From Niveibacterium sp. SC-1 (GTDB taxonomy: Bacteria; Pseudomonadota; Gammaproteobacteria; Burkholderiales; Rhodocyclaceae), in NCBI RefSeq assembly GCF_038235435.1, contig NZ_CP151275.1, forward strand, positions 868,001 to 932,000: a stretch of 64,000 nt of DNA, in the 5' to 3' direction. Each line of letters starts with the position of its first letter. Positions within the stretch are counted from its first letter, which is position 1. A program made the translations under genes and the position numbers. Under the pieces are notes generated by a model. That model ran no database searches. It saw nothing but the letters and a program-made list of their open reading frames with translations, and was not told where the DNA came from. Below are positions 4,469 to 60,550 of this stretch, piece after piece.

Positions 4469-4644
4469 TGGCAGTGGAGCGCCTGCTTGTCGTTGTTGTG
4501 TTGCGGCTCGTGCGTGCGGGGGCGAAGGCCCTGGCGCACGGCCGCATGTCGGGGTACTGCGGTCCGGACTCTACCTTGACATCATGCCGTGCGGGTAGCG
4601 CCGCGCGTCGGTTGGCTCGCGGCGCGATAAAGTTTCGACGGGCT

Positions 4645-5493: not shown

Positions 5494-6657
5494 TCAGGTG
5501 AGGCCCACGACTGCGGGCTCTTCGCGCCACTTGTGGATGGCCGCGCGCAAGACCGTTTCGAAGTCCGCGATTACCGCGTCCCAGGCCAGGGGCAGGACGC
5601 TGCGGCGTGCGGCCTCGCCGAGCCGCAGGCGTTGTGCCGGGTCGGCGGCCAGCTGGCGCGCCGCGGCGACGAAAGCCGAGGCGTCGTTGGCGGGCACATG
5701 GCGACCGTTCTCGCCGTCACGGATGAGCAGCGCGGCCGCGGCATCGTTGTAGGCGAGCACCGGCAAGCCGCTGGCCATCGCCTCCACGGTGACATTGCCG
5801 TAGGTCTCGGTGAGGCTGGGGAAGAGGAAGAGATCCCCCGACGCGTAGTGCGCGGCAAGATCCTCGTCGAAGCGTGCGCCGGCGAAATGGTGGTCGCTGT
5901 GGGCGCGCACCAGGGAGGCGTGCGCAGGGCCGTTGCCGACCCAGATCATGCGCGCCCCGGGGGTCTCGGCCGCGATCGCGTCGAAGGCGCGCTCCACCAG
6001 GGCGAGGTTCTTCTCCCGGGCGATGCGTCCCACGTAGAGCACAGCGAGATCGTCATCCCCGACGCCCCAGCTGCGACGCAAGGCCATGTCGCGCCGTGCC
6101 GGCGAGAAGAGCCGCGTGTCCACGCCGCGCCCGACCACGGCGACGCCCGGCACACCGGCCTCTTCCAGCGACTGACGCAGCGAAGGTGTCGGCACCAGGG
6201 TGGCGTCCGCACGCCGATGGAAGCTGCGCAGCCAGCCACCGACCAGCGGGCCAATGACCCCTACGCCGTAGTGACGGCTGTAGTGGTCGAAGTTGGTGTG
6301 ATAGCCACTGGTGATCGGCAGCTTCAGCGCGCGCGCCGCACGCAGTGCGGACCATCCCAGGGGGCCTTCGGTGACCACGTGCACCGCATCGGGGCGGCGG
6401 GCGGTCCAGGCGCGCTTGAGCGCGGCCTCTGCCGGCAGGCCGAAGCGCAGGCCCGGATAGCCGGGCAGGGGCAGGCCACCGACCAGGTGCTCGTCCGCGC
6501 CGCCGCGCTCGGCGCGCGCCTGGCGTGGGCGCACCACCGACACATGGTGGCCGCGCTCGCGCATGCCGCGGATCAGTCGGCCCACGGTCATCGCCACGCC
6601 GTTGACTTCGGGCGGATGGGTTTCCGTGACCAGGGCAATCTGCAGCGGCTCGCTCAT
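5494..6657 (-). CDS. GT4 glycosyltransferase (second GT of the lipid operon)
   Basis: The 387-residue GT-B fold enzyme begins with VTETHPPEVNGVAMT, an acceptor-side motif common in GT4 enzymes acting on lipid acceptors. Its nucleotide-sugar-binding C-terminal half carries LYVGRIAREKN and the E-x7-E region TETYGNVTVEAMASG. It is the last gene of a minus-strand operon, 10 bp after dgkA, behind another GT4 gene and a PlcP/LpxH-like phosphoesterase. From that context it may glycosylate diacylglycerol or a lipid made from it; the sugar and acceptor are not determined by sequence. Confidence 0.88.
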   Translation of the reverse strand: MSEPLQIALVTETHPPEVNGVAMTVGRLIRGMRERGHHVSVVRPRQARAERGGADEHLVGGLPLPGYPGLRFGLPAEAALKRAWTARRPDAVHVVTEGPLGWSALRAARALKLPITSGYHTNFDHYSRHYGVGVIGPLVGGWLRSFHRRADATLVPTPSLRQSLEEAGVPGVAVVGRGVDTRLFSPARRDMALRRSWGVGDDDLAVLYVGRIAREKNLALVERAFDAIAAETPGARMIWVGNGPAHASLVRAHSDHHFAGARFDEDLAAHYASGDLFLFPSLTETYGNVTVEAMASGLPVLAYNDAAAALLIRDGENGRHVPANDASAFVAAARQLAADPAQRLRLGEAARRSVLPLAWDAVIADFETVLRAAIHKWREEPAVVGLT

Positions 6658-6667
6658 GCGGGTTCCT

Positions 6668-7036
6668 TCAGTTGATCAGCACACAGCTCCAGACCACGAC
6701 CACATTCAGCAGCGCAATGAAGACGGCGGCCGAGCCGATGTCCTTGGCGCGCTTGGAGAGCCGGTGATGGTCCAGCGAGATGCGGTCCACCGCGGCCTCG
6801 ATCGCCGAGTTGAGCAGTTCCACGATGAGCACGAGCAACACGCTTGCGACCATCAGCGCGCGCCCCAGCATGCTCACCGGCAGCAGGCAGGCGGCCGGGA
6901 TCATCAGTACGGCGAGCAGGACCTCCTGGCGGAAGGCGTCCTCGTTTTTGTATGCGGCGCGCAGTCCATCCATCGAATAGACCAGGGCGTTGAGTACGCG
7001 CCTTAAGCCTGTCTTGCCCTTGAAGGGGCTTTCCAT
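6668..7036 (-). CDS. dgkA: Diacylglycerol kinase DgkA
   Basis: The 122-residue integral membrane kinase phosphorylates diacylglycerol to phosphatidic acid with ATP. It shows the three-helix DgkA pattern, the N-terminal amphipathic segment with GLRAAYKNEDAFRQE, the active-site helix VELLNSAIEAAVDR and the KRAKDIGSAAV motif. Its length equals the usual 120-130 residues. The start lies 34 bp inside the upstream glycosyltransferase gene, so the two are probably translationally coupled. Placement between two GT4 genes and after a PlcP-like gene suggests it recycles diacylglycerol in this pathway. Confidence 0.96.
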   Translation of the reverse strand: MESPFKGKTGLRRVLNALVYSMDGLRAAYKNEDAFRQEVLLAVLMIPAACLLPVSMLGRALMVASVLLVLIVELLNSAIEAAVDRISLDHHRLSKRAKDIGSAAVFIALLNVVVVWSCVLIN

Positions 7037-8211
7037 GCCGGATCCTTCTCGCCGCGGGCGGCGTGCAGTTCTCGATAGAGGGAGGCCAGCCGCGCGGTGA
7101 GCGCATCGTCCGACCAGTCCGCGGCCAGCACGCGTGCCGCTTGCCCCATCGCAGCGCGCAGCGGCGCATCCGTGGCGAGGGTGCGCATGGCCTGGGCGAA
7201 GTCCGTGAGGTCGTCACGCGGGATCAGGGCTCCGCGCCCGCTGGCGAGCAGGTCTCGCGTGCCCATCTCGGCGAGCGCAACCACCGGCAGCCCTGCGGCC
7301 ATGGCCTCGATCAGCACGAGGCCCTGGGTCTCGGTGCGCGAGGCGAAAGTGAAGAGGTCCGCCGCGGCATAGCAGTCGGGCAGGTCGCGGGCTCGGTCCA
7401 GATAGCCGATGAAGCGCACATGCGCGCCCTGGCCCCGGGCTTCTGCACGCTGGTGCAGGTCCTCCAGCGCGGGGCCTTCGCCGGCCACGACCAGGATCAG
7501 TTCCGGCGTCTGCTGGCGGGCGATCGCGAGGGCGTCGATCAGGAAGCCGATGTTCTTCTCGTGCGCCGCGCGCCCCACGAAGAGCGCGACGGGCTGCTCT
7601 GCGGGAATCTTGTAGCGGGCGCGGAAGCGGGCCCGTTGCGCGGCACGGTCGTGTACCGCGAACTGGTTCAGCGGCACGCCGGTGGGCAGCACGCGCATCG
7701 GCGTCTTCACGCCGTAGCTGGTCAGTCGCTCGACCATCGCGGCCGAGGGCACGACGATCGCATCCAGGGCGTTGCACTGGCTCGCCGAGAGTCGCCGCGC
7801 CAGCCCACGCAGCAATCCCTGGGGCAGGCGACGCGCGTAGAGATGCAGGTATTCCTCGAACAGCGTGTGATAGCTCGCGATCACCGGCAGGCCGAAGGCC
7901 CGCGCGGCGGAGAGCCCGGTGTAGTGCGCGGCGAACGGGGTCTGGATGTGGATCAGGTCGGCATGCTCGGCCGCGCGACGGACCACGCTGCGCAATGCGA
8001 TCGGCGAGACGATGCGGTCTTCAGGGTCGAAGGGTACGCGCCAGCCGGGGAGGCGGGTGATGCCCTGGGTGTCGTCCTCGTCGTCGTAGCGCGGCGCGAT
8101 CAGGTTCACCTCGAAACCGTGGCGGACAAGCCCGGAGCGATAGGTTTCGATTGCCGTGGAGACGCCGTTGACGCGTGGAAAATACACGTCGGAAACCATC
8201 AGGATGCGCAC
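7003..8211 (-). CDS. GT4 glycosyltransferase (first GT of the lipid operon)
   Basis: The 402-residue protein starts with MRILMVSDVYFPRVNGVSTAI and has the GT-B architecture. The C-terminal half contains LFVGRAAHEKN and SRTETQGLVLIEAMAAGLP, where the two Glu residues of the E-x7-E motif bind the nucleotide sugar. It starts 3 bp after the phosphoesterase gene and runs 34 bp into dgkA. It resembles lipid-directed GT4 enzymes, including the Agt type that glycosylates diacylglycerol. That function is inferred from neighbours and family, not proven. Confidence 0.9.
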   Translation of the reverse strand: MRILMVSDVYFPRVNGVSTAIETYRSGLVRHGFEVNLIAPRYDDEDDTQGITRLPGWRVPFDPEDRIVSPIALRSVVRRAAEHADLIHIQTPFAAHYTGLSAARAFGLPVIASYHTLFEEYLHLYARRLPQGLLRGLARRLSASQCNALDAIVVPSAAMVERLTSYGVKTPMRVLPTGVPLNQFAVHDRAAQRARFRARYKIPAEQPVALFVGRAAHEKNIGFLIDALAIARQQTPELILVVAGEGPALEDLHQRAEARGQGAHVRFIGYLDRARDLPDCYAAADLFTFASRTETQGLVLIEAMAAGLPVVALAEMGTRDLLASGRGALIPRDDLTDFAQAMRTLATDAPLRAAMGQAARVLAADWSDDALTARLASLYRELHAARGEKDPAWKAPSRARQA

Positions 8212-8214
8212 GAT

Positions 8215-8994
8215 TCAGACTTCTCCGGCGAGGACGGTTTCGAGCGCCGGCGTGCTCACCTTCCCCAGCCATTGCACAAGTTCGAGCCGGCCGTCCATGT
8301 GTTCGACGATCGCAGTGCAGGAATCCACCCAGTCACCGCAATTGACGTAGAGGAGCCCTTCGATCTCGCGCAGCGCGGCCCAGTGGATGTGGCCGCAGAC
8401 GACACCGTCGAGGCCGCGGCTGCGCGCGGCGTGGATGACGCTCTGTTCGAATTCGAAGATGAACTCCAGGGCTTTCTTGACTTTGCGTTTCGCGTAACCC
8501 GCGAGCGACCAGTAGCCCGATACGCCCAGCTTGCGGCGGCCCCAGGACAGCCAGACATTGATCCGCACTAGCAGGTTGTAGGCCATGTCGCCCAATACCG
8601 CCACCCACTTGTGGTAGCGCGTCACCTGATCGAATTCATCGCCATGCACCAGGAGGAGGCGGCGACCGTCGGCGGTCTCGTGCACCCATTCGGATTCCAC
8701 CCGGATCTCGCCGAAGACGGTGCCGACATAGTCGCGCAGCGCCTCGTCGTGGTTGCCGGGGATGAAGATGACCTCTTCGCCGTGGCGGGCGCGTCGCAGG
8801 ATCTTCTGCACCACCGTGTTCTGCGCCGCACTCCAGTGGATGCTGCGGCTCATCGACCAGAAGTCGATGATGTCGCCCACGAGGTAGAGGCGGTCGGCCG
8901 GGTGCTCACGCAGGAAATCGAGGAGTCGATCGGCCTGGCAGGCGCGGGTGCCGAGGTGGATATCCGAGAGGAATACGGTGCGTACGCGGGGCAT
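8215..8994 (-). CDS. PlcP/LpxH-like metallophosphoesterase
   Basis: The 259-residue calcineurin-type phosphoesterase keeps all metal-ligand motifs: SDIHLG (Asp11, His13), GDIIDFW (Asp41), GNHDE (Asn81, His82), VHGDEFD and GHIHW. Automated annotation usually calls this family UDP-2,3-diacylglucosamine diphosphatase. Its length, the TRACQADRLLDFLR segment and the NCGDWVDSCTAI C-terminal region match the branch that includes the phospholipase C PlcP of Sinorhizobium meliloti. It is the first gene of an operon with two GT4 genes and dgkA, which fits release of diacylglycerol from phospholipids better than lipid A synthesis. No Pho box was recognised upstream. Confidence 0.82.
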   Translation of the reverse strand: MPRVRTVFLSDIHLGTRACQADRLLDFLREHPADRLYLVGDIIDFWSMSRSIHWSAAQNTVVQKILRRARHGEEVIFIPGNHDEALRDYVGTVFGEIRVESEWVHETADGRRLLLVHGDEFDQVTRYHKWVAVLGDMAYNLLVRINVWLSWGRRKLGVSGYWSLAGYAKRKVKKALEFIFEFEQSVIHAARSRGLDGVVCGHIHWAALREIEGLLYVNCGDWVDSCTAIVEHMDGRLELVQWLGKVSTPALETVLAGEV

Positions 8995-9053
8995 CGGCGC
9001 GCACTATCGCCGCGTGATGTTGCAGGGGCGTGAAGCCGTCGCGGGTGCTCCGC

Positions 9054-10946: not shown

Positions 10947-12341
10947 TCAGTAGGCCGTGTCGTCCTTGACCACCAGCAACGCGGTCTTCACGACGATCCA
11001 CAGATCCATGCCGAGCGACCAGTTGCGCAGGTATTCGAGGTCGAACTCGATGCGCTTCTGCATCTTGTCCACGGTCTCGGTCTCGCCGCGGTAGCCATTG
11101 ACCTGGGCCCAGCCCGTGATGCCGGGCTTGACCTTGTGGCGGACCATGTAGCCCTTGATCAGCTTGCGATAGGTCTCGTTGTGGGCGACGGCGTGGGGGC
11201 GCGGACCGACGATGCTCATGCGTCCCTGCAGCACGTTCATGAACTGCGGCAATTCGTCCAGCGAGGTCTTGCGGATGAAGGCCCCGAAAGGCGTGATGCG
11301 CGAGTCGTTGCGCGTCGCCTGGGTCACTTTCTCGCCATCCTCGGTGACCCGCATCGAGCGGAACTTGTAGACGATGATCTCCTTGCCATCGAGGCCGTAG
11401 CGGCGCTGGCGGAAGATGATCGGGCCTGGAGACGACATCTTCACCCCGATTGCCACGCCGAGCAGGATCGGCGAGATCAGCACCAGGATGATCAGCGAGA
11501 GCAGGATGTCCTCGCAGCGCTTGAGGATGCCATTGAAGCCGGTGAAGGGCGTATCGCAGACCGCCACGACCGGCATGCCGGCCATGGTTTCCATGCGGCC
11601 GTTGATGAGGTCGGTGACGAAGATGTCCGGGGTGAAATAGATCGAGGCGGTGGTGTCCTTGAGGTCGTCGAGCAGACTGAGGATGCGCGGCTGGGTCGCC
11701 ATCGGCAGGGCGAGATAGATGCGGTCCACATGGTGCGTCTTCACGTACTCGGCCAGGCCGGAGAGATTGCCAAGCAGGGGTGCGTCACCGATCTGCTTGA
11801 GCCGGTCGCGCTCGCGATCGTCGAAGTAGCCCAGGAAACGCACGCCCAGGTACTTGTTCTCGCGGAACTGGGTGGAAAGCTGTTGGCCGATTTCATTCAC
11901 GCCGCAGATCACGGCGTTCGCCTCGGATTCGGACAGCACCAGCATGCGCGGCACGGCGACGCGCGCGATCATCTGCGTGCCGAACTGCAGGAAGGGCAGG
12001 CTGATGAACCAGGCGAACAGCGCCCTATCCGAGAAGCTGTCCAGATAGCCGCTGGCGTAGCCGAAGAGGATCAAGACGCCAGCGAGCGTCATGGAGCTCA
12101 TCAGGGCCTTGCGCGCGACCCGCCGCGGCGATTCGCTCAGCAGCATGTCGCCAGGGAAGCTCAGGGAGAAGGCGATGAGCGCCAGGATCACATAGCGCGC
12201 ATCGAGGGTCTCGCCATAGATCGCCGCGCAGGCGAACAAGGACCCCACCACGACGGCCGGATCCAGGAAGGATTCCACCGCACCGGCCAGGGTGATGGTG
12301 CTGCGAAGAGGGGTGCGCTGCTTGTCGAGGGTGCCGAGCAT
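10947..12341 (-). CDS. Undecaprenyl-phosphate sugar-1-phosphate transferase (priming enzyme of EPS)
   Basis: The 464-residue polyisoprenyl-phosphate hexose-1-phosphate transferase has the WcaJ/PssY-type layout: four N-terminal membrane helices, a Rossmann-like CoA-binding-type domain (about 135-260), another helix and a bacterial sugar transferase domain (about 270-464). The catalytic domain shows SSPGPIIFRQRRYG, YKFRSM, DELPQFMNVLQG, SIVGPRPHAVAHNE and KPGITGWAQVNGYRGET. Such enzymes load the first sugar phosphate, usually glucose, on the lipid carrier. It is transcribed away from epsL and starts the repeat unit for the EPS locus. Confidence 0.93.
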   Translation of the reverse strand: MLGTLDKQRTPLRSTITLAGAVESFLDPAVVVGSLFACAAIYGETLDARYVILALIAFSLSFPGDMLLSESPRRVARKALMSSMTLAGVLILFGYASGYLDSFSDRALFAWFISLPFLQFGTQMIARVAVPRMLVLSESEANAVICGVNEIGQQLSTQFRENKYLGVRFLGYFDDRERDRLKQIGDAPLLGNLSGLAEYVKTHHVDRIYLALPMATQPRILSLLDDLKDTTASIYFTPDIFVTDLINGRMETMAGMPVVAVCDTPFTGFNGILKRCEDILLSLIILVLISPILLGVAIGVKMSSPGPIIFRQRRYGLDGKEIIVYKFRSMRVTEDGEKVTQATRNDSRITPFGAFIRKTSLDELPQFMNVLQGRMSIVGPRPHAVAHNETYRKLIKGYMVRHKVKPGITGWAQVNGYRGETETVDKMQKRIEFDLEYLRNWSLGMDLWIVVKTALLVVKDDTAY

Positions 12342-12377
12342 GAGTTCGTGAATCCGTTTGCGATGTCAGCCTTGCCA

Positions 12378-12393
12378 AGGCACGAATGTTGCG
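12378..12393 (+). promoter_or_regulatory. Sigma-54 (RpoN) promoter of epsL
   Basis: AGGCACGAATGTTGCG matches the RpoN consensus TGGCACG-N4-TTGCW at all core positions except the first and last base, with exact GG-N10-GC spacing. Transcription would start at about 12404, giving a leader of about 35 nt before the epsL ATG at 12439. XrtB/PEP-CTERM EPS systems are often tied to sigma-54 activators of the PrsR type; none is encoded in this window. Confidence 0.72.
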
Positions 12394-12438
12394 GGGATGG
12401 CAGTGATCTCTTGTCCTTCAATCAGAACAACGACCGCC

Positions 12439-13680
12439 ATGCCGCCCATGCCCATTCCCTATAGCAAGAAGTCTTCCAGTTCTCGCCTGTTGCGCGCACT
12501 CCTTGCCGGATCCGGTTGCGGCCTGCTGCTGCAGTCGCCCGCCTTGCGTGCGGATGAGGGGGACGCGTTCCGCTATGGCGGTGGCGCCACCGTGCAGTAC
12601 GAGAGCAACGTTTTTCGCCGCAGCGACGACTCGCCAGCGGGCGCGCCCTCGGATACGTCGTTCCGCGGCTACGGGCTGCTGGGTTTCGACAAGACCTGGA
12701 GCCGCCAGCGCTTCTATGGGGATTTCATCTTCGGGCGTGTGCACTACGCCGAGTTCTCGGAGCTCGACTACAACCGGCAGGACTTCAACGCCGGCTGGAA
12801 GGGGAATTTCCCCGGGAACATCAACACCGGTCTCGACTGGAAGCAGACGCAGTCGCTGGCCAACCTCTCGGACCTTCTGGTCAAGCGCCGCAACGTGATC
12901 ACGCGCGACAACATCGACGGCACCCTGGACATTCCCCTGGTCGCCAACTGGCACCTGCTGGGGGGCGCCGGCTACCAGCAATCGCGCAATTCGAACGACA
13001 TCGACAAGGTCAATGACCTGAACGGCGTCTATGGCGAAGGCGGCGCGCGCTACCTGACCAACTATGGCAACCAGTTCGATCTGGTCTACCGGGAGCTGCA
13101 TTCCGAATACGTTCGGCGGGACACCAGCGCGCGCGTGGATACCCGCTACGTCGAACGTTCGGCCGATCTGCGGGTGCGCTGGGCGCCCACGGGAAACAAC
13201 AGCCTGGAGGGCTTTGTGGGCTTCGTGCGGCGCGAGCACGAAACTCTCGATTACCGGAATTTCGCAGGCCCCAGCTTCCGCCTCAGCGACACCTGGACCC
13301 TGGGCGGATCCACGACCCTGGTCACTACGATTTACCGCACCATGGGCGCCGCGGGTGACAGCGAGTTCGACTACGCAGTGACCAAGGGCCTGCGGATCGC
13401 GCCGACCTATCAGATCAGCGCGAAAATGAGCCTGACGGGCGCGTTTGAATGGCAGGACCGCCGTTACTTCGGCAGCTACTCCAGCGAGGTCCTGAACCTG
13501 CCCAATGTCGCGTCGGGGCGCACCTACGACGACAAGACGCTGGAGCTGGGGCTCAACTACCAGGCCCTGCGTTGGCTGAGAACGCGATTGTCATATATCG
13601 GGCAACGTCGAGATGCCCAGACCGCCTTGTCCGAATTCAGTTCGCACACGGTGTTGCTGGATGCACAACTGAGCTTCTGA
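12439..13680 (+). CDS. epsL: EpsL-like outer-membrane beta-barrel EPS protein
   Basis: The 413-residue protein starts with a signal peptide (about 1-35, cleavage after ALRA) and continues as an outer-membrane beta barrel with alternating residues and many Tyr, Arg and Asp turns (GGATVQYESNVFR, WRQ-type repeats, final LLDAQLSF with terminal Phe). It fits the EpsL family associated with exosortase-B EPS loci, thought to form or assist the polymer exit route. The frame is open back to 12358, but the predicted sigma-54 transcript begins near 12404, so 12439 (or 12448) is the likely start. It is divergent from the priming transferase. Confidence 0.85.
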   Translation: MPPMPIPYSKKSSSSRLLRALLAGSGCGLLLQSPALRADEGDAFRYGGGATVQYESNVFRRSDDSPAGAPSDTSFRGYGLLGFDKTWSRQRFYGDFIFGRVHYAEFSELDYNRQDFNAGWKGNFPGNINTGLDWKQTQSLANLSDLLVKRRNVITRDNIDGTLDIPLVANWHLLGGAGYQQSRNSNDIDKVNDLNGVYGEGGARYLTNYGNQFDLVYRELHSEYVRRDTSARVDTRYVERSADLRVRWAPTGNNSLEGFVGFVRREHETLDYRNFAGPSFRLSDTWTLGGSTTLVTTIYRTMGAAGDSEFDYAVTKGLRIAPTYQISAKMSLTGAFEWQDRRYFGSYSSEVLNLPNVASGRTYDDKTLELGLNYQALRWLRTRLSYIGQRRDAQTALSEFSSHTVLLDAQLSF

Positions 13681-14315
13681 GTATCGAGGTCGCGAAAGCC
13701 TGTCGTGTCATGGCGACAGCGCCGATTGCCTTGTCTGGCGCGGGTTTCGCCGTTTTGACCTCCGCCGCTGGCAATGTTGCTGCGCGGCAAAGCACGGTCA
13801 GCCTGTCGTGTTCGGGCAACAGTGGAGCGCCGCAAGGTTTTGTGCTCCTCCTGCCCCTGCCTGTTTCCTGCATGGGGTGATCGTACGCAAGCCGGACGGT
13901 TTGCGCGCTTGCTGTCGCGAGGGGCCCCAAGGGCCGTGCTTCCGCAGGCCTTGATGGAGCCGTGCGTGTGTTTCCGCACGTCCGGTTCGCTGTCTTGGCA
14001 TGCGGCGTGCTACTCAAGAATCGAATCTGCTTTACGCCTTTGCTCCTGACCTTGCTTTCAGTCCACCAGGTGATGCCGCCGGCATCCCGTTTCTGCTTCC
14101 GACCCCCGCACACGAACGTCCAAAGAACGCAAGTGCCGTGCGATGGTGCAAAGCAGCAATTTGCGCACCGCTTCGGTGCTGGCGGAAATTCGACACGGGG
14201 GCCGAGTCCTTTTGTGGAAAGGCTTGACAGCTGATTGTGCTGTAACGGCCGATGTTGAAAATCCTGCTGTGATCATGTGCGATCGCAGCAAATTTGTGCA
14301 GTAAGGAGTCGCCCC
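13681..14315. other. 635-bp intergenic region between epsL and epsD
   Basis: No ORF here has a recognisable product; the open frames are GC-driven. It contains a sigma-54-like site (13996-14011) and a TTGACA (14224-14229) without a matching -10. Its A+T content looks higher than in neighbouring genes near 14150-14310. It is probably a long regulatory leader or the remnant of a lost gene. Confidence 0.5.
13996..14011 (+). promoter_or_regulatory. Candidate sigma-54 promoter upstream of epsD
   Basis: TGGCATGCGGCGTGCT has GG-N10-GC spacing and matches TGGCACG-N4-TTGCW except at two positions (C to T, T to G). A start near 14022 would leave a long leader of about 290 nt before epsD. It is weaker than the site before epsL and may be chance in GC-rich DNA. 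Confidence 0.35.
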
Positions 14316-15215
14316 ATGAACCGAATGCTCCATTCTCTTCGACCCGTTTCCCTGGTGTTTCTGTGTGCCTTGCCCGCCGCTTGCGCACGTCACGACGCCG
14401 CGCCCAGCGGTCAGGTCGTCGCCAAGGTCAATGGGAGCGAGCTGACCGTGCATCAGCTCAATTACGCGATCCAGCGTTCGGGTGGCGCGGGCGGTGAGGC
14501 CGGCTCGCGAGCCCTGCTTGATCGGCTGGTGGATCAACAGCTCCTGGTGACGGCCGCAGAAGAGAAGAAGCTCGATCGCGACCCTCGCGTGGTCCTCGCG
14601 CTGGACGCTGCGCGCCGCGAGGTGCTTGCGCGCAGCTACCTGGAGCAGATGGCCGCCACGCCCGCCAGCGCCGACAGCAAGGCGGTGCGCGACTACTACC
14701 AGGCTCATCCTGAGCTCTTCGCCGAGCGCAGCATTTATCGCTTCAAACAGATCGTTGTGCCGGGGCAGCTCACGCCTGCCGCGAAGGCCGCGACTGCGAG
14801 CGCCGCCACTCTGGATGGTGTTGCGGCTGCACTGCGCAAGGAAAACGTCAAGTTCACGGAGTCGCAGCAGCAGCGCGCCGCAGAGCAGCTGCCGATGGAG
14901 GTCCTGCCGCGCATGCATGCGCTCAAGCCGGGGCAGCTCCTGACTATTCCTGCAGATGACGGCGTCATGTACGTGGAGCTCGTCGACGCGCGCGTCGAAC
15001 CCATGGACGAGGTGGCAGCGCGACCCTTGATCGAACGTTTCCTCGGCAACAAGGAGCGCGGCGATGCGGCACGCACCGAACTGGCGCGCCTGAAGGCGGG
15101 TGCGAAGGTCGAGTATCTGGGGCAGTTCGCCAAGGCCGATTCGCCCGTCGTGCCGGTGAGCATCGAGCCGACGGCGGATCGTGGCGACGCCTCGGTTCTC
15201 AAGGCCCTCAAGTGA
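14316..15215 (+). CDS. epsD: EpsD-family lipoprotein peptidyl-prolyl isomerase
   Basis: The 299-residue lipoprotein has a lipobox (LPAAC, Cys23) and a SurA/parvulin-like layout: an N-terminal helical chaperone part (about 35-130) and a parvulin-like segment (about 140-260). The isomerase part is degenerate, which is usual for the EpsD family of exosortase-B EPS loci. It probably acts in the periplasm on EPS secretion proteins. ATG at 14316 follows a TAAGGAG site 7 bp upstream; the frame is open to 14277 but without a ribosome site. epsE follows 84 bp later. Confidence 0.86.
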   Translation: MNRMLHSLRPVSLVFLCALPAACARHDAAPSGQVVAKVNGSELTVHQLNYAIQRSGGAGGEAGSRALLDRLVDQQLLVTAAEEKKLDRDPRVVLALDAARREVLARSYLEQMAATPASADSKAVRDYYQAHPELFAERSIYRFKQIVVPGQLTPAAKAATASAATLDGVAAALRKENVKFTESQQQRAAEQLPMEVLPRMHALKPGQLLTIPADDGVMYVELVDARVEPMDEVAARPLIERFLGNKERGDAARTELARLKAGAKVEYLGQFAKADSPVVPVSIEPTADRGDASVLKALK

Positions 15216-15299
15216 CGCACTTCACGCGAGCCCGGTCTCTGCTTGCTCAGTGTCAGGGGCGGGATGAGGTGCTGGCCCGAATCTTGAATCAGGGAACGC

Positions 15300-16178
15300 A
15301 TGCGATACCTAACTGCTTCTGACCTCGCCCACGCTGAGCCGGCCCCCGGGTTCGTGCGGCGCCTGTTCCTCGGTATGTGCGCGCTCCTGCTCGTCAGCCT
15401 CGCGCATGCGCAGGCGGCCCAAAGCGAAGGCGCACCGAAGTCCACCGACGCCCCCGAGTACGCGATTGGCGCAGGTGACGTCCTGCGCGTCAGCGTCTTT
15501 CAGAATCCGGACCTCACGCTCGAGACCCGCGTCTCCGAGAACGGCAGCATCTCGTACCCGCTGGTGGGGACGGTGTCGGTTGGCGGCGAGTCGCTGAGCG
15601 CCGCGGAGAAGAAGATCGCGCAGCGCCTCAAGGATGGCGGCTTTGTGGTGCAGCCGCAGGTCACGATCTTTGTGCTGCAGATCCACGGCAACCAGGTTGC
15701 GGTTCTGGGGCAAGTGAACAAGCCCGGGCGCTATCCGTTGGACACGGCCAACAGCCACCTCTCCGACCTGCTCGCGACGGCGGGCGGCATCGCCAGCACT
15801 GGCGCCGACGTCGTGATCTTCACCGGCGTGCGAGGCGGCAAGCCCGTGCGCCGCGAGATCGACATCGCCTCCATGTTCCTCTCGAATGAGCGCGACAACG
15901 ACATCGTCATGCAGGCGGGCGACATCCTTTACGTGCATCGCGCGCCCGTCTTCTACATCTACGGCGAAGTGCAACGGCCGGGGGTTTTCCGTCTGGAGCG
16001 CGGCGTCACGGTGATGCAGGCGCTGGCCACCGGCGGTGGCCTGACGGCAAAAGGCACGCAGCGCGGGGTCCGGATCCAGCGGCGCGATCCGCAAGGCAAG
16101 GTTCTGGCGGTCGAGCCCCTGCTCGACGAACAGCTGCGTCCCGACGACGTGGTGTACGTCAAGGAAAGCATCTTCTGA
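15300..16178 (+). CDS. epsE: Polysaccharide export protein EpsE (Wza-like)
   Basis: The 292-residue periplasmic/outer-membrane export protein has a membrane-targeting N-terminus (hydrophobic about 22-36, cleavage likely after AHA), a Poly_export domain (about 52-135, starting YAIGAGDVLRVSVFQ) and two SLBB-type beta-grasp repeats (LGQVNKPGRYPL and YGEVQRPGVFRL). No lipobox Cys is seen, unlike Wza. It would form the periplasmic export channel that works with EpsF and EpsL. epsF begins 8 bp after its stop. Confidence 0.93.
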   Translation: MRYLTASDLAHAEPAPGFVRRLFLGMCALLLVSLAHAQAAQSEGAPKSTDAPEYAIGAGDVLRVSVFQNPDLTLETRVSENGSISYPLVGTVSVGGESLSAAEKKIAQRLKDGGFVVQPQVTIFVLQIHGNQVAVLGQVNKPGRYPLDTANSHLSDLLATAGGIASTGADVVIFTGVRGGKPVRREIDIASMFLSNERDNDIVMQAGDILYVHRAPVFYIYGEVQRPGVFRLERGVTVMQALATGGGLTAKGTQRGVRIQRRDPQGKVLAVEPLLDEQLRPDDVVYVKESIF

Positions 16179-16186
16179 GGTCCGCG

Positions 16187-17608
16187 ATGAGCATCGAACA
16201 ACTCTTGCACGTACTGCGTTCGCGCTGGAAGCTGGTGCTGCTGAGCACGGTTCTGGTGTTTGCCGTGGCCCTGATCGTGAGCGCGGTGCTGCCCAAGCGC
16301 TACACCGCGACGGCATCCGTGCTTGCCGAAGCGCGCTCGATCGATCCGGTTTCCGGCGGATTGGCCTCCGTAACCATGCTGCCGGGATATGTGGCGACTC
16401 AGATCGACATCATCTCGAGCGAACGCGTGGCGCGTCGCGTGGTGAAGATGCTGGGTCTGGACAAAAGCCCCGAGGCGGTGCAGCGCTGGCGGGACGAAGC
16501 CGAGGGGCTCGGTACAGTGGAGAACTACTACGCTGGCCTGCTCGCGAAGGGCCTGGAAGTCGTTCCGGGGCGCGAGTCAAACGTGATCTCGATTTCCTTC
16601 CATGGCGCCGACCCCAAAGTCGCTGCATCGATCGCCAACGCCTTCGCGCGCGCCTACGTTGAGACCTCGCTCGAGCTGAAGGTGGACCCCGCCCGTGAAT
16701 ATGCGTCATGGTTCGTCGATCGGACCAAGCAGCTTCGTGACAATCTGGAGCAGGCTCAGACCCGTCTCTCCGCCTTTCAGCGCGACAAGGGCATTGTCTC
16801 CGTCGACGATCGACTCGACGTCGAGAACGCGCGACTTGCCGAGCTGAGCACACAGCTGGCCGCCTCGCAGGCACAACGTGCAGACACGGCCTCGCGGCAA
16901 CGCCAGGCTTCGTCGAGCATGGACACCTCGCCCGATGTGCTGCAGAACCCTGTTGTCTCAGCACTGCGCGCGGACGTGGCACGTCAGGAGGCAAAGCTAA
17001 AGGACTTGTCTGGCCAGCTGGGCGTCAACCACCCGCAGTATCAACGCTCGCTGGCTGAGCTCGTCGAACTCAAGGCCAAACTGGACGCGGAAATGCGCCA
17101 GGTGGCCGCCTCGGTCGGTTCCGCGGCGCAGGCCAACGTCTTTCGCGAAGGGACGATCCGGGGCACGATCGATACGCAGAAGCAACGCATTCTTGCCTTG
17201 CGGCAGCAGCGAGACGAGCTGGCGGTTCTCCAGCGCGACGTCGAGAGCGCGCAAAAAGCCTATGACCTCGTTGCGCAGCGACTCTCGCAACTGAGCCTGG
17301 AGAGCCAGTCTCAGCAGACCAACATCAGCGTCCTCGATGCCGCGGCCGAACCGACTTCGCCGTCGAGCCCGAAGAGCTTGCGCAACGCCCTGCTTGGCCT
17401 CGTGCTCGGTTGCGCGCTTGGCGTCGGGGTTGCGCTTCTGCTCGAGCTGATCGATCCGCGCGTTCGCAGCGTCGGCGATCTGCGCCACTACGCCGGAGTC
17501 CCGGTGCTCGCAGAACTGCCCGAGATCCGCCCGTCGGGCATCCGTCGTCGCAAGGTTCGCCGTGCGGCGGCGGAGCCGACTCTCGCTCAAGCAGGAGCGC
17601 ATGTATGA
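16187..17608 (+). CDS. epsF: Chain length determinant protein EpsF (Wzz-type copolymerase)
   Basis: The 473-residue inner-membrane protein has a Wzz domain with a first helix at about 14-37 and a second at about 398-420 (LGLVLGCALGVGVALLLE), separated by a long periplasmic coiled-coil region. The proline-rich approach to the second helix (EPTSPSSPKS) is typical of polysaccharide copolymerases. It sets polymer length and links the polymerase to the EpsE channel. The C-terminus lacks a fused kinase domain; that role belongs to epsG, whose ATG overlaps the epsF stop (ATGA). Confidence 0.93.
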   Translation: MSIEQLLHVLRSRWKLVLLSTVLVFAVALIVSAVLPKRYTATASVLAEARSIDPVSGGLASVTMLPGYVATQIDIISSERVARRVVKMLGLDKSPEAVQRWRDEAEGLGTVENYYAGLLAKGLEVVPGRESNVISISFHGADPKVAASIANAFARAYVETSLELKVDPAREYASWFVDRTKQLRDNLEQAQTRLSAFQRDKGIVSVDDRLDVENARLAELSTQLAASQAQRADTASRQRQASSSMDTSPDVLQNPVVSALRADVARQEAKLKDLSGQLGVNHPQYQRSLAELVELKAKLDAEMRQVAASVGSAAQANVFREGTIRGTIDTQKQRILALRQQRDELAVLQRDVESAQKAYDLVAQRLSQLSLESQSQQTNISVLDAAAEPTSPSSPKSLRNALLGLVLGCALGVGVALLLELIDPRVRSVGDLRHYAGVPVLAELPEIRPSGIRRRKVRRAAAEPTLAQAGAHV

Positions 17609-25328: not shown

Positions 25329-26351
25329 ATGACGGAACCCAAGACTTCGCAACCCCATGTCACGGTCGTCCTGCTGAACTGGAATGGCTGGCGCGACACG
25401 CTCGCCTGCCTCGAGAGTCTCCTGCGCAGCGAGTACGGAAACGCGTCGGTGGTCGTCGTCGACAACGCTTCCACGGACGGTTCCCGGGCGCATATCGAGT
25501 CCTGGGCGGCGACCGAGCGGACGCCTGGCTTCGCGCGGGCGGCCTTCATCGCGGCCGGGGAGGCGCTGCCTTTTGGCGCCCTCGCGGCGGGGGATCTTCT
25601 GTACGTCCAGTCCCCCGTAAATGGCGGTTTCGCGGCCGGCAACAACCACGGAATTCGCGCGGCTCTGGCAGGCGGGGCCGACTATGTCTGGATCCTCAAC
25701 AACGACACCGAGATCGACTGTCGTGCGCTCTCTGCCCTGGTGCAAAAGGTGGAGGACGACCCGCGGATCGGCATGTGCGGATCCCTGCTTGTCTACTACG
25801 ACGCGCGTGAGCAGGTGCAAGCCTGCGGAGGAGTCTCATTCAGCTACTGGCGAGCACTTGGCCAGCAAATTGGCTACGGACTGAATCCGGCCAACATTGA
25901 TTCGGGACGCATACTGCAGCAACCGCTGACCTATGTGGCAGGCGCATCTTTGCTTGCCCGAAGCGCAATGATTCGCGAGGTCGGTGCGTTCGAGGAACGC
26001 TACTTCCTGTACTACGAAGAGATCGACTGGGCGGAGCGTGCTGCACACTGGAAACTCGCCGTCGCGCTGGACAGCGTGGTGTATCACAAGGAAGGTGGGT
26101 CTATCGGGACTGCGAGCCGCCAGAAGCGCTCTCCGCTCTCGCAGTACTACCTCAACCGCAATCTGATTCTCTTCTACGGTCGCTTCCACAAGATGCGGCT
26201 GCCCGTGGCCATCATGCGGGTGTGCAAGGAACTGGCCCAGAGGATCAAGTACGGCGACTACCACCTCGCGCGAGTGACATGGCGGGCCTTGGTGGACGGC
26301 GTGCGCGTCAGCGATGGGCCGATCGATCGCACTCTGCTGGAGAGAGCATGA
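25329..26351 (+). CDS. GT2 glycosyltransferase
   Basis: The 340-residue GT-A enzyme begins with VTVVLLNWNGW and has the VVDNASTDGS donor region, NNDTEID in place of the DxD-type metal site, and the EERYFLYYEEIDWAERA motif with the acidic catalytic residues. A hydrophobic C-terminal part is absent. ATG at 25329 follows GGAGAGGCAA; an in-frame GTG at 25317 is less likely. The downstream gene overlaps by ATGA. It resembles rhamnosyl-type transferases. Confidence 0.9.
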   Translation: MTEPKTSQPHVTVVLLNWNGWRDTLACLESLLRSEYGNASVVVVDNASTDGSRAHIESWAATERTPGFARAAFIAAGEALPFGALAAGDLLYVQSPVNGGFAAGNNHGIRAALAGGADYVWILNNDTEIDCRALSALVQKVEDDPRIGMCGSLLVYYDAREQVQACGGVSFSYWRALGQQIGYGLNPANIDSGRILQQPLTYVAGASLLARSAMIREVGAFEERYFLYYEEIDWAERAAHWKLAVALDSVVYHKEGGSIGTASRQKRSPLSQYYLNRNLILFYGRFHKMRLPVAIMRVCKELAQRIKYGDYHLARVTWRALVDGVRVSDGPIDRTLLERA

Positions 26352-27430
26352 GCGCGTCCTATGAAGTCGCCAGGGCAGCTCCGGCGAGCAGCGAAGCAGG
26401 TGGGTCTGCGCGCAAGTCTCGGATTCTCTATTCGGGATTCCGTTGGGACCACCACGACGAACACTCCGGGTACCACCATGTCGTCGGCGCCCCGGACGCC
26501 TATGTGGACGGTGGACGCCTGTTCGGGGGTACGAGCCCGATCGGTTCGCGCGCGCGCAGGATCAATTTCCTGTTGATCGATTGCCTGACCGTGCTGCGCG
26601 CCTTGCCCTACAAGGCGGTGCTGCTCTTCTATCCCGAGCAGACGAGCTATCTGTCGGCCCCGTTGCTGCGCCTCATGGGCAAACGGGTCGTCTATGTACT
26701 GCATCTGGGCGAGGATTACTGGTTCGATCGCGCAGACTCCTTCTTCCTCAAGATCAAGCGCTTCAACCTGCGTTTCGTTAGCCGCTTCGTGGTGCTGACG
26801 GAGCAGCAGCAGCGCGTTTTCGATGCGCACTTTCCGGGTCGGGTGCTGCGCATCCCGCATGGAGCCTGGTGCGAACAGAAGGAATCTCCTCGGAGCACAC
26901 GCGACGAAATTGCTCCGAACAGCATTACCGTTATCGGAGACACCTACCGCGACTATGCCCTGCTGGCTGAACTGATCCGGGTCCTGGGCCAGCGCATGCC
27001 GGATCTCAGGATCAATCTGGTGGGCATGAAGTACGAGAAGCTAGGCGAGGCGCGTCACAGCCACAACGTGGTCTGTCACCCGCGCCTGGGCAAGACCGAG
27101 TACGACGAAGTCATCCGCAGTGCGCTTTTCATCGTCCTGCCCCTCTCGTTTGCGACCGCCAACAATGCCTTGCTCGAAGGCTTGGCGATGGGGGTTCCGG
27201 TGCTGTGCAACCGGGTGCACGGGGTGGGCGAATACTTGCCGAGCGAGCGCTACATTTTTGAAGATGGCGAAGACCTCGTGCGCCGGATCGAGGCGCAGCG
27301 GATGAAGTCGCTAAAGGACCGCGAAGATGAGGCCGAGGAGCTGGCCCGCCATGTGACGGAACACTATTCGTGGCCGCGCGTGCGGGAGCGCATTGAAGCC
27401 TTCTGCCTCGACGTGGAGCCGCGCTCATGA
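26348..27430 (+). CDS. GT4-like glycosyltransferase
   Basis: The 360-residue GT-B protein has an unusual N-terminal part (YSGFRWDHHDEHSGYHHVV, typical of a subset of EPS glycosyltransferases) and a Rossmann C-terminal half with RINLVGMKYEKLG and the NNALLEGLAMGVPVL motif in the E-x7-E region. The start at 26348 overlaps the preceding stop. Its own stop overlaps the start of a 54-codon ORF. Confidence 0.82.
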   Translation: MSASYEVARAAPASSEAGGSARKSRILYSGFRWDHHDEHSGYHHVVGAPDAYVDGGRLFGGTSPIGSRARRINFLLIDCLTVLRALPYKAVLLFYPEQTSYLSAPLLRLMGKRVVYVLHLGEDYWFDRADSFFLKIKRFNLRFVSRFVVLTEQQQRVFDAHFPGRVLRIPHGAWCEQKESPRSTRDEIAPNSITVIGDTYRDYALLAELIRVLGQRMPDLRINLVGMKYEKLGEARHSHNVVCHPRLGKTEYDEVIRSALFIVLPLSFATANNALLEGLAMGVPVLCNRVHGVGEYLPSERYIFEDGEDLVRRIEAQRMKSLKDREDEAEELARHVTEHYSWPRVRERIEAFCLDVEPRS

Positions 27431-58822: not shown

Positions 58823-58828
58823 TACAAT
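58823..58828 (+). promoter_or_regulatory. Putative -10 of the DUF47-pit operon
   Basis: TACAAT sits 33 bp before the DUF47 start. No good -35 is present at 17 bp, so the call is tentative. Confidence 0.3.
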
Positions 58829-58860
58829 TACGGTTTTGTTTCAGAGGCTTGCCCCCCGCC

Positions 58861-59487
58861 ATGTTCTCGCGCCTGATGCCCCGGGAGGGGCGTTTTTACG
58901 AGTATTTCGACAAGGTCGCCACCAAGGTGGTCGAAGGCTCTCGTGAACTTGCCGCCCTGATGGGCGATATCGATCAGCTCCCCAGCCGCATGCGCCGCAT
59001 CGAGCAGCTGGAAAAGGAAGCGGACGTCTACACCCACGACACGCTCGAACTGCTGCACAAGACCTTCATCACGCCGATCGACCGCGACGACATCCACGCC
59101 CTGGCCACCCGCCTGGACGACATCCTGGACATGGCGCACTCCTGCGCGGCGACGATCTACGAGTTCGACATCCAGAAACTCACGCCCGAGGCCAAGCATC
59201 TGGCCGACCTGTGCCTGCAGGCCAGCATCCTGGTCAAGGACGGCGTGGCCCTGATGCCCGACATGAAGAACGCCAACCGCGTGCTGGAGATCTGCAAGGA
59301 GATCGGCCGCATCGAGGACGAGTCCGACCATGTGATGCGTGCCGCCATGGCGCGTCTCTTCCGCGAAGAGCCGGAAGTGCGCCAGGTGATGAAGCTGCGC
59401 ACTGTCTACGAGCGGCTGGAAGACATGGCCGACCGCTGCTACATCGTTGCCACGATCCTCGAAGGCATCATTTTCGAGAACGCCTGA
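58861..59487 (+). CDS. DUF47/PhoU-like Pit accessory protein
   Basis: The 208-residue all-helical protein has the DUF47 motifs (YEYFDKVATKVVEGSREL; RIEQLEKEADVYTHDTLELLHKTFITPIDRDDIHALATRLDDILDM). Members are paired with Pit transporters and modulate phosphate uptake. pit follows 40 bp after the stop. Confidence 0.93.
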   Translation: MFSRLMPREGRFYEYFDKVATKVVEGSRELAALMGDIDQLPSRMRRIEQLEKEADVYTHDTLELLHKTFITPIDRDDIHALATRLDDILDMAHSCAATIYEFDIQKLTPEAKHLADLCLQASILVKDGVALMPDMKNANRVLEICKEIGRIEDESDHVMRAAMARLFREEPEVRQVMKLRTVYERLEDMADRCYIVATILEGIIFENA

Positions 59488-59527
59488 GGCGTCCCCGGAA
59501 ATCTGCGTCCCCCTACGGCCTGTCCCG

Positions 59528-60550
59528 ATGACCTTCCAGTTCCTGCTCGTCCTTATCCTGCTGGCCCTGCTGTTCGACTTCATGAACGGCTTCCACGACG
59601 CGGCCAACTCCATCGCCACGGTGGTCTCCACCGGCGTGCTGCGACCGCAATGGGCCGTAATCTGGGCCGCCTTCTTCAACTTCGTTGCCTACTTCCTCTT
59701 CGAGCACACGGTGGCCGCCACGATCGGCAAAGGCACCATCGACCCGGCCATCGTCGATCACTACGTGATCTTCGGGGCGCTGCTCGGCGCCATCGCCTGG
59801 AACGTGATCACCTGGTATTTCGGCATCCCGTCGAGCTCCTCGCACGCGCTCATCGGCGGGCTGGTGGGTGCCGCGATCGCGAAGTCGGGCACCGAGTCGC
59901 TCATCTCCTCGGGCCTGGTCAAGACCGTCTCCTTCATCGTGATCTCGCCGCTGCTCGGCATGCTGCTCGGCTCGCTGATGATGCTGGCGGTCGCCTGGAT
60001 CGCTCGCCGCGCCACGCCGCGCCGCGTCGACAAATGGTTCCGTCGCCTCCAGCTGGTTTCCGCCGCGGCCTACAGCCTGGGCCACGGCGGTAACGACGCG
60101 CAGAAGACGGCCGGCATCATCTGGATGCTACTGATCTCCGCCACGCTCACCAATCCGGAAGTGGTGCCGCATTGGATGCAGGCCAACAGCGGGCACCTGC
60201 CCGCCTGGGTGGTCGTGATGTGCTACATCACCATCGGCGCGGGCACCATGTTCGGCGGCTGGCGCATCGTCAAGACCATGGGGCAGAAGCTGACCAAGCT
60301 CAAGCCGGTCGGGGGGTTCTGCGCCGAGACCGGTGGTGCGCTGACCCTGTTCATCGCGACGCACTGGGGGATCCCGGTCTCCACTACCCACACGATCACC
60401 GGCGCCATCGTCGGCGTCGGCTCCTGCGAAAGCCCCAAGGCCGTGCGCTGGGGCCTGGCCGGCAACATCGTGATGGCCTGGATCCTGACCATCCCGTGTT
60501 CGGCCTTCATGGCCGGCATCGGCTGGGAGATCGCGCGCCGCGTGTTCTGA
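59528..60550 (+). CDS. pit: Low-affinity inorganic phosphate transporter Pit
   Basis: The 340-residue protein has about 9-10 helices and the duplicated PHO-4 motifs: FMNGFHDAANSIATVV and YSLGHGGNDAQKTAG. It is a metal-phosphate:proton symporter. ATG at 59528 gives the family N-terminus. A strong terminator follows. Confidence 0.95.
   Translation: MTFQFLLVLILLALLFDFMNGFHDAANSIATVVSTGVLRPQWAVIWAAFFNFVAYFLFEHTVAATIGKGTIDPAIVDHYVIFGALLGAIAWNVITWYFGIPSSSSHALIGGLVGAAIAKSGTESLISSGLVKTVSFIVISPLLGMLLGSLMMLAVAWIARRATPRRVDKWFRRLQLVSAAAYSLGHGGNDAQKTAGIIWMLLISATLTNPEVVPHWMQANSGHLPAWVVVMCYITIGAGTMFGGWRIVKTMGQKLTKLKPVGGFCAETGGALTLFIATHWGIPVSTTHTITGAIVGVGSCESPKAVRWGLAGNIVMAWILTIPCSAFMAGIGWEIARRVF

Follow-up and report, generated by a model that had tools for sequence, protein, structure and literature searches.

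The subject of this study is a group of four genes located in a 64,000-nucleotide (nt) stretch of the Niveibacterium sp. SC-1 genome (hereafter the window), corresponding to 868-932 kb of a one-contig genome of 5.17 Mb. The genes are arranged head to tail on the minus strand, and Pfam assigned their products, all of them over the curated cut-offs, to the calcineurin-like phosphoesterases, the glycosyltransferases of family 4 (GT4), the prokaryotic diacylglycerol kinases and again the GT4 enzymes. The first gene, plcP (8215-8994), encodes a metallophosphoesterase (PF12850/PF00149) predicted to act as an intracellular phospholipase C, which would yield diacylglycerol (DAG). After a gap of 3 nt, it is followed by the gene for a GT4 here termed GTA (7003-8211, GTG start, PF13439/PF00534), a candidate DAG glycosyltransferase from a clade apart from the Agt enzymes. 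The end of this gene overlaps by 34 nt (7003-7036) with the start of dgkA (6668-7036), which encodes an integral-membrane diacylglycerol kinase (PF01219), and 10 nt further downstream lies the gene for GTB (5494-6657), assigned to GT4 by Pfam and a candidate second glycolipid glycosyltransferase. An initial annotation of the window had described the four genes as a minus-strand operon, and the open reading frames (ORFs) and Pfam matches bear out its positions, gaps and overlap. A scan for sigma-70 promoters between positions 4500 and 9900 found none. Upstream of plcP, on the same strand, matrix scans located a degenerate Pho box (GCTTCAC-N4-CTGCAAC, 9019-9036) that begins at position −42 relative to the plcP ATG.

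The phosphoesterase groups with PlcP and apart from LpxH

Two genes served as PlcP references, one from Sinorhizobium meliloti, located near genes for an acyl-homoserine-lactone synthase and a LuxR-type regulator, and one from Pseudomonas aeruginosa, followed by a GT4 gene and then by a cyclase-domain gene. From these neighbourhoods, we take them to be SMc00171 and PA3219, respectively. The window phosphoesterase was 51% identical to the S. meliloti PlcP and 54% identical to the P. aeruginosa PlcP, which share 47% identity with each other, and 28% identical to the LpxH of its own genome. SMc00171 is termed a phospholipase C in PMC3596328.

In a tree of 47 rows, the 11 LpxH rows split off with support of 100/100, and the window protein was placed among the 36 PlcP-side rows together with both reference PlcPs; the branch between the two sides is long, and the order within the PlcP side is partly resolved. 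A Thioclava row was omitted from this tree for its long branch, and a plcP copy with two in-frame stops (G038:C7) was omitted from the trees, its upstream DNA being kept among the 72 regions of the Pho box analysis described below. The metal-site motif was GNHD in all 37 PlcP-type rows, Thioclava included, and in the window protein, and GNRD in all 11 LpxH rows, and this H/R residue may separate the functions of PlcP and LpxH. In addition, the window phosphoesterase scored 44.7 bits on the LpxH model, under the cut-off of 190.35, and a true lpxH scoring 252.5 bits was found elsewhere in the genome (G000:C1:3084727-3085401). LpxH identity was rejected on these scores, the tree and the GNHD motif, and judged by its sequence the window phosphoesterase is a PlcP. 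This agrees with the PlcP-type assignment of the initial annotation: the protein did not group with LpxH, and its genome did not lack another lpxH. Uliginosibacterium and Niveibacterium were among the top organism-named matches of the phosphoesterase. Public annotation labels such proteins LpxH or UDP-2,3-diacylglucosamine diphosphatase, and the LpxH label would hide PlcP remodelling in betaproteobacteria.

Conservation and linkage of the cluster

Conservation was studied in 41 genomes, the window's own and 40 relatives, with PlcP counted at E ≤ 1e-80 and GTA at E ≤ 1e-100. Of the six same-genus genomes, five showed the same gene order on one contig; in the remaining one (G004) a contig break falls inside the GTA gene, with the correct neighbours on both pieces. 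Since the order is kept in the same-genus genomes, the arrangement is not due to chance. PlcP was present in 27 of the 41 genomes and GTA in 16, all of which carried PlcP and GTB, and the 14 genomes that lack PlcP were all devoid of GTA at E ≤ 1e-100. A GT4 match in G034 (34%, E 2.3e-54) was left out of the GTA count. The plcP and GTA genes lay at most about 10 kb apart in all 16 GTA genomes, with dgkA within the cluster in 12 of them. Among family members the gene order was shuffled and the linkage kept, G007 and G013 showing the map order plcP, GTB, dgkA, GTA.

A larger collection, drawn from named genomes, consisted of the 80 loci most similar in GTA among 570 confirmed ones and was therefore not sampled at random; it shares L103 with the set of relatives. 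Within 10 kb of GTA, plcP was found in 65 of these best 80 loci, GTB in 47 and dgkA in 35, matches cut at contig ends (e.g., PlcP in L129) being scored as absent, and the corresponding values for the 40 loci with full 10-kb flanks were 36, 26 and 24. The gene order of the window was the most frequent one (25 of the best 80 loci). Forty-four loci in which dgkA follows GTA on the same strand were scored for the overlap of both genes, which was exactly 34 nt in 10 of them (nine distinct, as L103 and L047 are one contig; the window is not counted) and 4 nt in four more. This recurrence favours a common transcript with translational coupling. Some loci of the Azonexus and Dechloromonas type had genes between GTA and dgkA, for an opposite-strand cyclic nucleoside monophosphate (cNMP)-binding-like protein and for outer-membrane-like proteins, judged by eye to be unrelated.

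The initial annotation had also pointed to phoU in the vicinity. This gene does lie 0.8 kb from the operon, as part of a divergent rpiA-phoU pair that adjoins plcP in five of the six same-genus loci. A phoU relative was found in the flanks of 14 of the best 80 loci, in most cases at a distance of 3 to 8 kb from plcP; these loci are L104, L105, L106, L113, L116, L117 and L120, together with L126, L136, L137, L143, L149, L158 and L159. The distance is as annotated, such proximity is for the most part a trait of this genus, and phoU was dropped as a member of the module.

Incomplete or unusual loci were also observed. The second plcP copy of G038 (C7, L059/L014), the one with two in-frame stops, stands beside GTA, and the intact copy is at C57. 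Four Thauera/Aromatoleum loci (L147, L148, L150 and L166) showed GTA without plcP, dgkA or GTB in their flanks, some of which are short; a Thauera PlcP was present among the protein matches.

The two glycosyltransferases form clades distinct from Agt

The top NCBIfam model for GTA was NF049988, alpha-monoglucosyl-DAG synthase (138.9 bits vs a cut-off of 400, nearly full length), on which GTB scored 87.9 bits. For GTB, the top model was NF053787, N-acetylglucosaminyl-phosphatidylglycerol synthase (148.5 bits vs a cut-off of 480, nearly full length). Both models also ranked top for P. aeruginosa Agt1, with 50.7 bits on NF049988 and 60 bits on NF053787; since the validated Agt1 reaches just that score on NF049988, this model misses some DAG glycosyltransferases. 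The solved structures matched by the GT4s include phosphatidylinositol mannosyltransferases, besides other GT4 enzymes.

A tree of 37 GT4 rows resolved three clades, GTA (100/100), GTB (100/100) and an Agt-type clade (100/98) that contains P. aeruginosa Agt1. Agt identity of the two enzymes, in line with the Agt-type glycosyltransferases to which the initial annotation had referred, was rejected on this tree. GTB, with 36% identity to Agt1 over 318 amino acids (aa), is by sequence nearer to Agt than GTA (27% over 374 aa), yet stands outside the Agt clade. In Propionivibrio (L134), a gene between GTA and dgkA encodes a GTB-like protein that equals Agt in length (355 aa, 36%). With both enzymes under the curated cut-offs and outside the Agt clade, DAG as their acceptor is inferred, and its glycosylation is the likely reaction. 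The helical moments of the GT4s, modest in a scan, were not used as evidence, and an ORF of a polysaccharide cluster in the window (26222-27430), picked by eye as a glycosyltransferase control, matched no NCBIfam family and was therefore useless as a control.

Pho boxes upstream of plcP

The regions upstream of plcP were scanned with a generic Pho matrix, built on CTGTCAT-N4-CTGTCAT, and with a family matrix trained on 72 distinct plcP upstream regions, same-genus loci excluded; L112 and L129, whose plcP rows lie at contig ends, and L176, which lacks DNA upstream of plcP, were left out of the scans. With the generic matrix, p ≤ 0.01 was reached by 47 of the 95 distinct regions upstream of plcP in relatives, in comparison with 16 of 339 control stretches. 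In 55 of the 72 family regions, the best site by this matrix fell into one of three intervals relative to the start codon (−40 to −42, −51 to −53, −62 to −64); 300 permuted matrices averaged 12.1 such in-phase sites and reached 52 at most. As the regions belong to related genomes, they do not count as independent events.

The initial annotation had recognised no Pho box in the window, a statement amended by the motif-model scan. The best site in the 120 nt upstream of plcP by the family matrix was the one at 9019-9036, with 9.84 bits (p = 0.009), and it differs from the Pho consensus at 7 of 14 positions. By the generic matrix, too, this was the highest-scoring site upstream of the window plcP. 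With the same matrix, sites were found in the own genome upstream of pstS1 (at −64, 15.54 bits, p = 0.001) and phoB (at −62, 10.22 bits, p = 0.016), both outside the training set. When 20 other loci were scanned with a nearly identical matrix, scores of at least 9.9 occurred at 0.009 per 103 positions. A search of the whole genome with the generic Pho pattern, allowing up to three mismatches, gave 120 matches vs 47 for the reversed pattern, none of them at plcP. The genome encodes one PhoB above the cut-off. Altogether, a Pho box before plcP is likely but weak in the window genome, and clear boxes are present in relatives, among them Dechloromonas denitrificans (L118) and Rhodocyclus purpureus (L157), in which plcP, GTA, dgkA and GTB also occur side by side.

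Further Pho-box-like sites were noted. The strongest one in the window (58827-58844, minus strand, 19.6 bits) lies between an msrA-like and a DUF47/PhoU-like gene, both named by eye; the latter (ATG at 58861) is followed by a PitA-like transporter gene (59447-60550, below cut-off), and the site is oriented oppositely. Elsewhere in the genome, two tandem Pho-like boxes near 2,502,140 (L075) stand beside genes resembling, by eye, type VI secretion genes, and tandem Pho-like boxes near 3,948,028 (L077) precede a gene for a small PEP-CTERM-like secreted protein, after which comes a gene resembling, also by eye, that of a secreted 5'-nucleotidase.

Proposed function and alternative explanations

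The PlcP tree, the separate lpxH and the Pho boxes of the relatives support the central idea of the initial annotation, a PlcP-type module for phospholipid remodelling. We consider it probable that the four genes constitute a PhoB-controlled operon that replaces phospholipid by glycolipid under phosphate starvation, with a branch that returns DAG to phosphatidate. Also in favour of this are the sites before pstS1 and phoB, the PhoB of the genome, the occurrence of GTA solely in genomes with PlcP and GTB, the linkage that persists through shuffled gene orders, and the published plcP systems. At low phosphate, binding of PhoB to the box before plcP would lead to transcription of the four genes as a single message. 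PlcP would split phospholipids intracellularly into DAG and a phospho-alcohol, with phosphate being freed, and GTA and GTB would add sugars to DAG to form phosphorus-free glycolipids, either as two separate monoglycosyl lipids or by acting in sequence. DgkA would convert unglycosylated DAG into phosphatidate, which would enter phospholipid synthesis, so that DAG would not build up.

Several observations weigh against this proposal. GTA is missing from 11 of the 27 PlcP genomes, and 15 of the best 80 GTA loci, four of them with full flanks, have no plcP in reach. Both GT4s are below the curated cut-offs and outside the Agt clade. The generic matrix gave the window site 5.28 bits (p = 0.365), 7 of 127,966 window positions (the site included) reach at least its family-matrix score, and a family-matrix scan upstream of the second PstS gene showed no box (p = 0.57). 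Training from permuted seeds converged as well on position-locked sites (comb mean 45.7 and maximum 57, vs 57 for the real seed), so that only the result of the untrained, generic matrix is independent. Finally, DgkA is present in 32 of the 41 genomes, including some without PlcP, dgkA belongs to the cluster in just 12 of the 16 GTA genomes, and the kinase may serve chiefly in osmoregulated glucan turnover.

DgkA is a member of its family, with 121.7 bits on PF01219 (cut-off 22.3) over residues 20-120 of 122 and a near full-length match to the diacylglycerol kinase structure 3ze5 (E 1.1e-32). Its gene gave the single match across the genome, and as the sole DgkA it probably performs housekeeping work as well. 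The DgkA of E. coli recycles DAG from glucan synthesis and the genome has two MdoG matches, which together make two jobs for the enzyme probable here. A dedicated paralogue was searched for and not found: in a tree of 30 rows of this short protein, resolved only in part, the cluster copies formed no clade of their own and were intermixed with dgkA from elsewhere in the relatives. This mixture, together with the dgkA genes of PlcP-less genomes, indicates that the ordinary kinase was recruited into the operon. The initial annotation had DgkA add a DAG-recycling branch; the position of dgkA within the operon is in favour of it, and a kinase dedicated to that branch by descent is not what the tree and the single copy indicate. 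The branch from DAG to phosphatidate follows from the known DgkA reaction, and from the position of the gene we infer that it takes part in remodelling, which it might tune.

A first alternative is that PlcP, GTA and GTB make a phosphate-controlled glycolipid and DgkA is a passenger, a housekeeping kinase for glucan-derived DAG caught in the operon. We regard this as a real possibility, somewhat short of an even chance, to which the single DgkA, the MdoG matches, the mixed tree and the dgkA of PlcP-less genomes all lend weight. It is opposed by the varied gene arrangements with which dgkA recurs as a cluster member (12 of 16 GTA genomes, 35 of the best 80 loci), by its position next to GTB and away from plcP in G038, and by the overlap with GTA of exactly 34 nt or 4 nt in 14 of 44 loci.

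A second alternative is that the glycolipid made by the operon is a constitutive component of the membrane, with no response to phosphate starvation in the genus and the box as a decayed relic. The box is indeed degenerate in the window and moderate in the genus, where generic-matrix p values range from 0.015 to 0.395. However, a site at −42 is the top-ranking one in all but one of the six same-genus loci, where it comes third, it is in phase with the clear boxes of the family, and its 9.84 bits in the window are near the 10.22 bits of the phoB box of the same genome. We consider this explanation improbable. A third alternative, to which the LpxH-type names of public annotation lend some weight, would make the phosphoesterase another UDP-diacylglucosamine hydrolase, with a role of the GT4s in lipopolysaccharide synthesis; it is scarcely credible in view of the sub-cut-off LpxH score, the true LpxH elsewhere, the tree and the GNHD motif.

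As an extension of the proposed remodelling operon, co-expression of PlcP and DgkA under PhoB might create an adjustable cycle instead of a one-way switch, with DAG shared between sugar lipids and phosphatidate. We put this forward as a speculation that is rather unlikely to hold. If true, head groups could be exchanged (e.g., phosphatidylethanolamine to phosphatidylglycerol) and the return would be fast once phosphate recovers. Accumulibacter and Dechloromonas store polyphosphate and live with phosphate swings, and such polyphosphate-storing relatives would be the place to look for the cycle.

Other features of the genome

PF13444 acyltransferase matches were found in the own genome at 4,611,587, 4,135,734 and 1,516,833. 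This family includes ornithine-lipid synthases, and the genome may thus provide for phosphorus-free lipids of other kinds. A phospholipase A-like gene lies at positions 191-925 of the window (plus strand, 209 bits vs a cut-off of 369), and the window edge or the choice of start may shorten it. An Eps-type exopolysaccharide cluster begins at 10947-17608 with WcaJ, EpsL (XrtB type, slightly under cut-off), EpsD, EpsE and EpsF.

Comparison with known systems

Lipid remodelling by PlcP has been described for alpha- and gammaproteobacteria and for marine Flavobacteria. If the proposed function is correct, a group of betaproteobacteria from freshwater, soil and wastewater remodel their lipids by PlcP too, with a DAG-recycling enzyme in the same message. 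The literature covered, consisting of titles and the beginnings of abstracts with few subscription papers, contained no dgkA in a plcP operon and no PlcP remodelling in Rhodocyclaceae; the available part of PMC13086504 has dgkA in a gene list and discusses plcP separately.

One counterpart is P. aeruginosa PA3219-PA3218 (plcP-agt1), where plcP is accompanied by agt, a GT4 gene, and by Pho boxes, and the lipids were established with mutants (PMC8528852). Similar plcP systems are present in Methylosinus and marine bacteria (PMC9239053, PMC4796936), and mutants tie plcP and agt to glycolipids (PMC8528852, PMC9239053). A chromosome-like block with plcP and an adjacent GT4 was also observed on the P. 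aeruginosa plasmid pHPA0698-2 (L035, NZ_CP137508.1), and plcP in two further P. aeruginosa plasmid records. The window resembles the plcP-agt operons of P. aeruginosa, Pelagibacter and Methylosinus in that PlcP is followed by a GT4, and that of P. aeruginosa, which has a Pho box before plcP, also in a PlcP of the same clade. It differs from them in having two GT4s of other clades instead of Agt, plus dgkA.

The S. meliloti PlcP (SMc00171) belongs to the same PlcP clade as the window protein (51% identity). Its gene, regulated by PhoB (PMC10315480), has a Pho-type site upstream (17.7 bits); unlike the window, this locus has no annotated glycosyltransferase or dgkA within about 5 kb. Six types of plcP arrangement have been distinguished, and in types 3 and 5 genes for putative glycosyltransferases follow plcP (PMC4796936). 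The window is like these two types in having plcP directly upstream of such genes, a likeness of gene arrangement; dgkA and betaproteobacteria are unmentioned for them in the available part of that paper. Regarding the single enzymes, GTA has alpha-monoglucosyl-DAG synthase (NF049988) as its best NCBIfam match, over the full length, and with a score far under the cut-off is no member by that model. DgkA is of the same family as the prokaryotic diacylglycerol kinases of solved structure, and differs from the ordinary DgkA in its setting, within a plcP operon.

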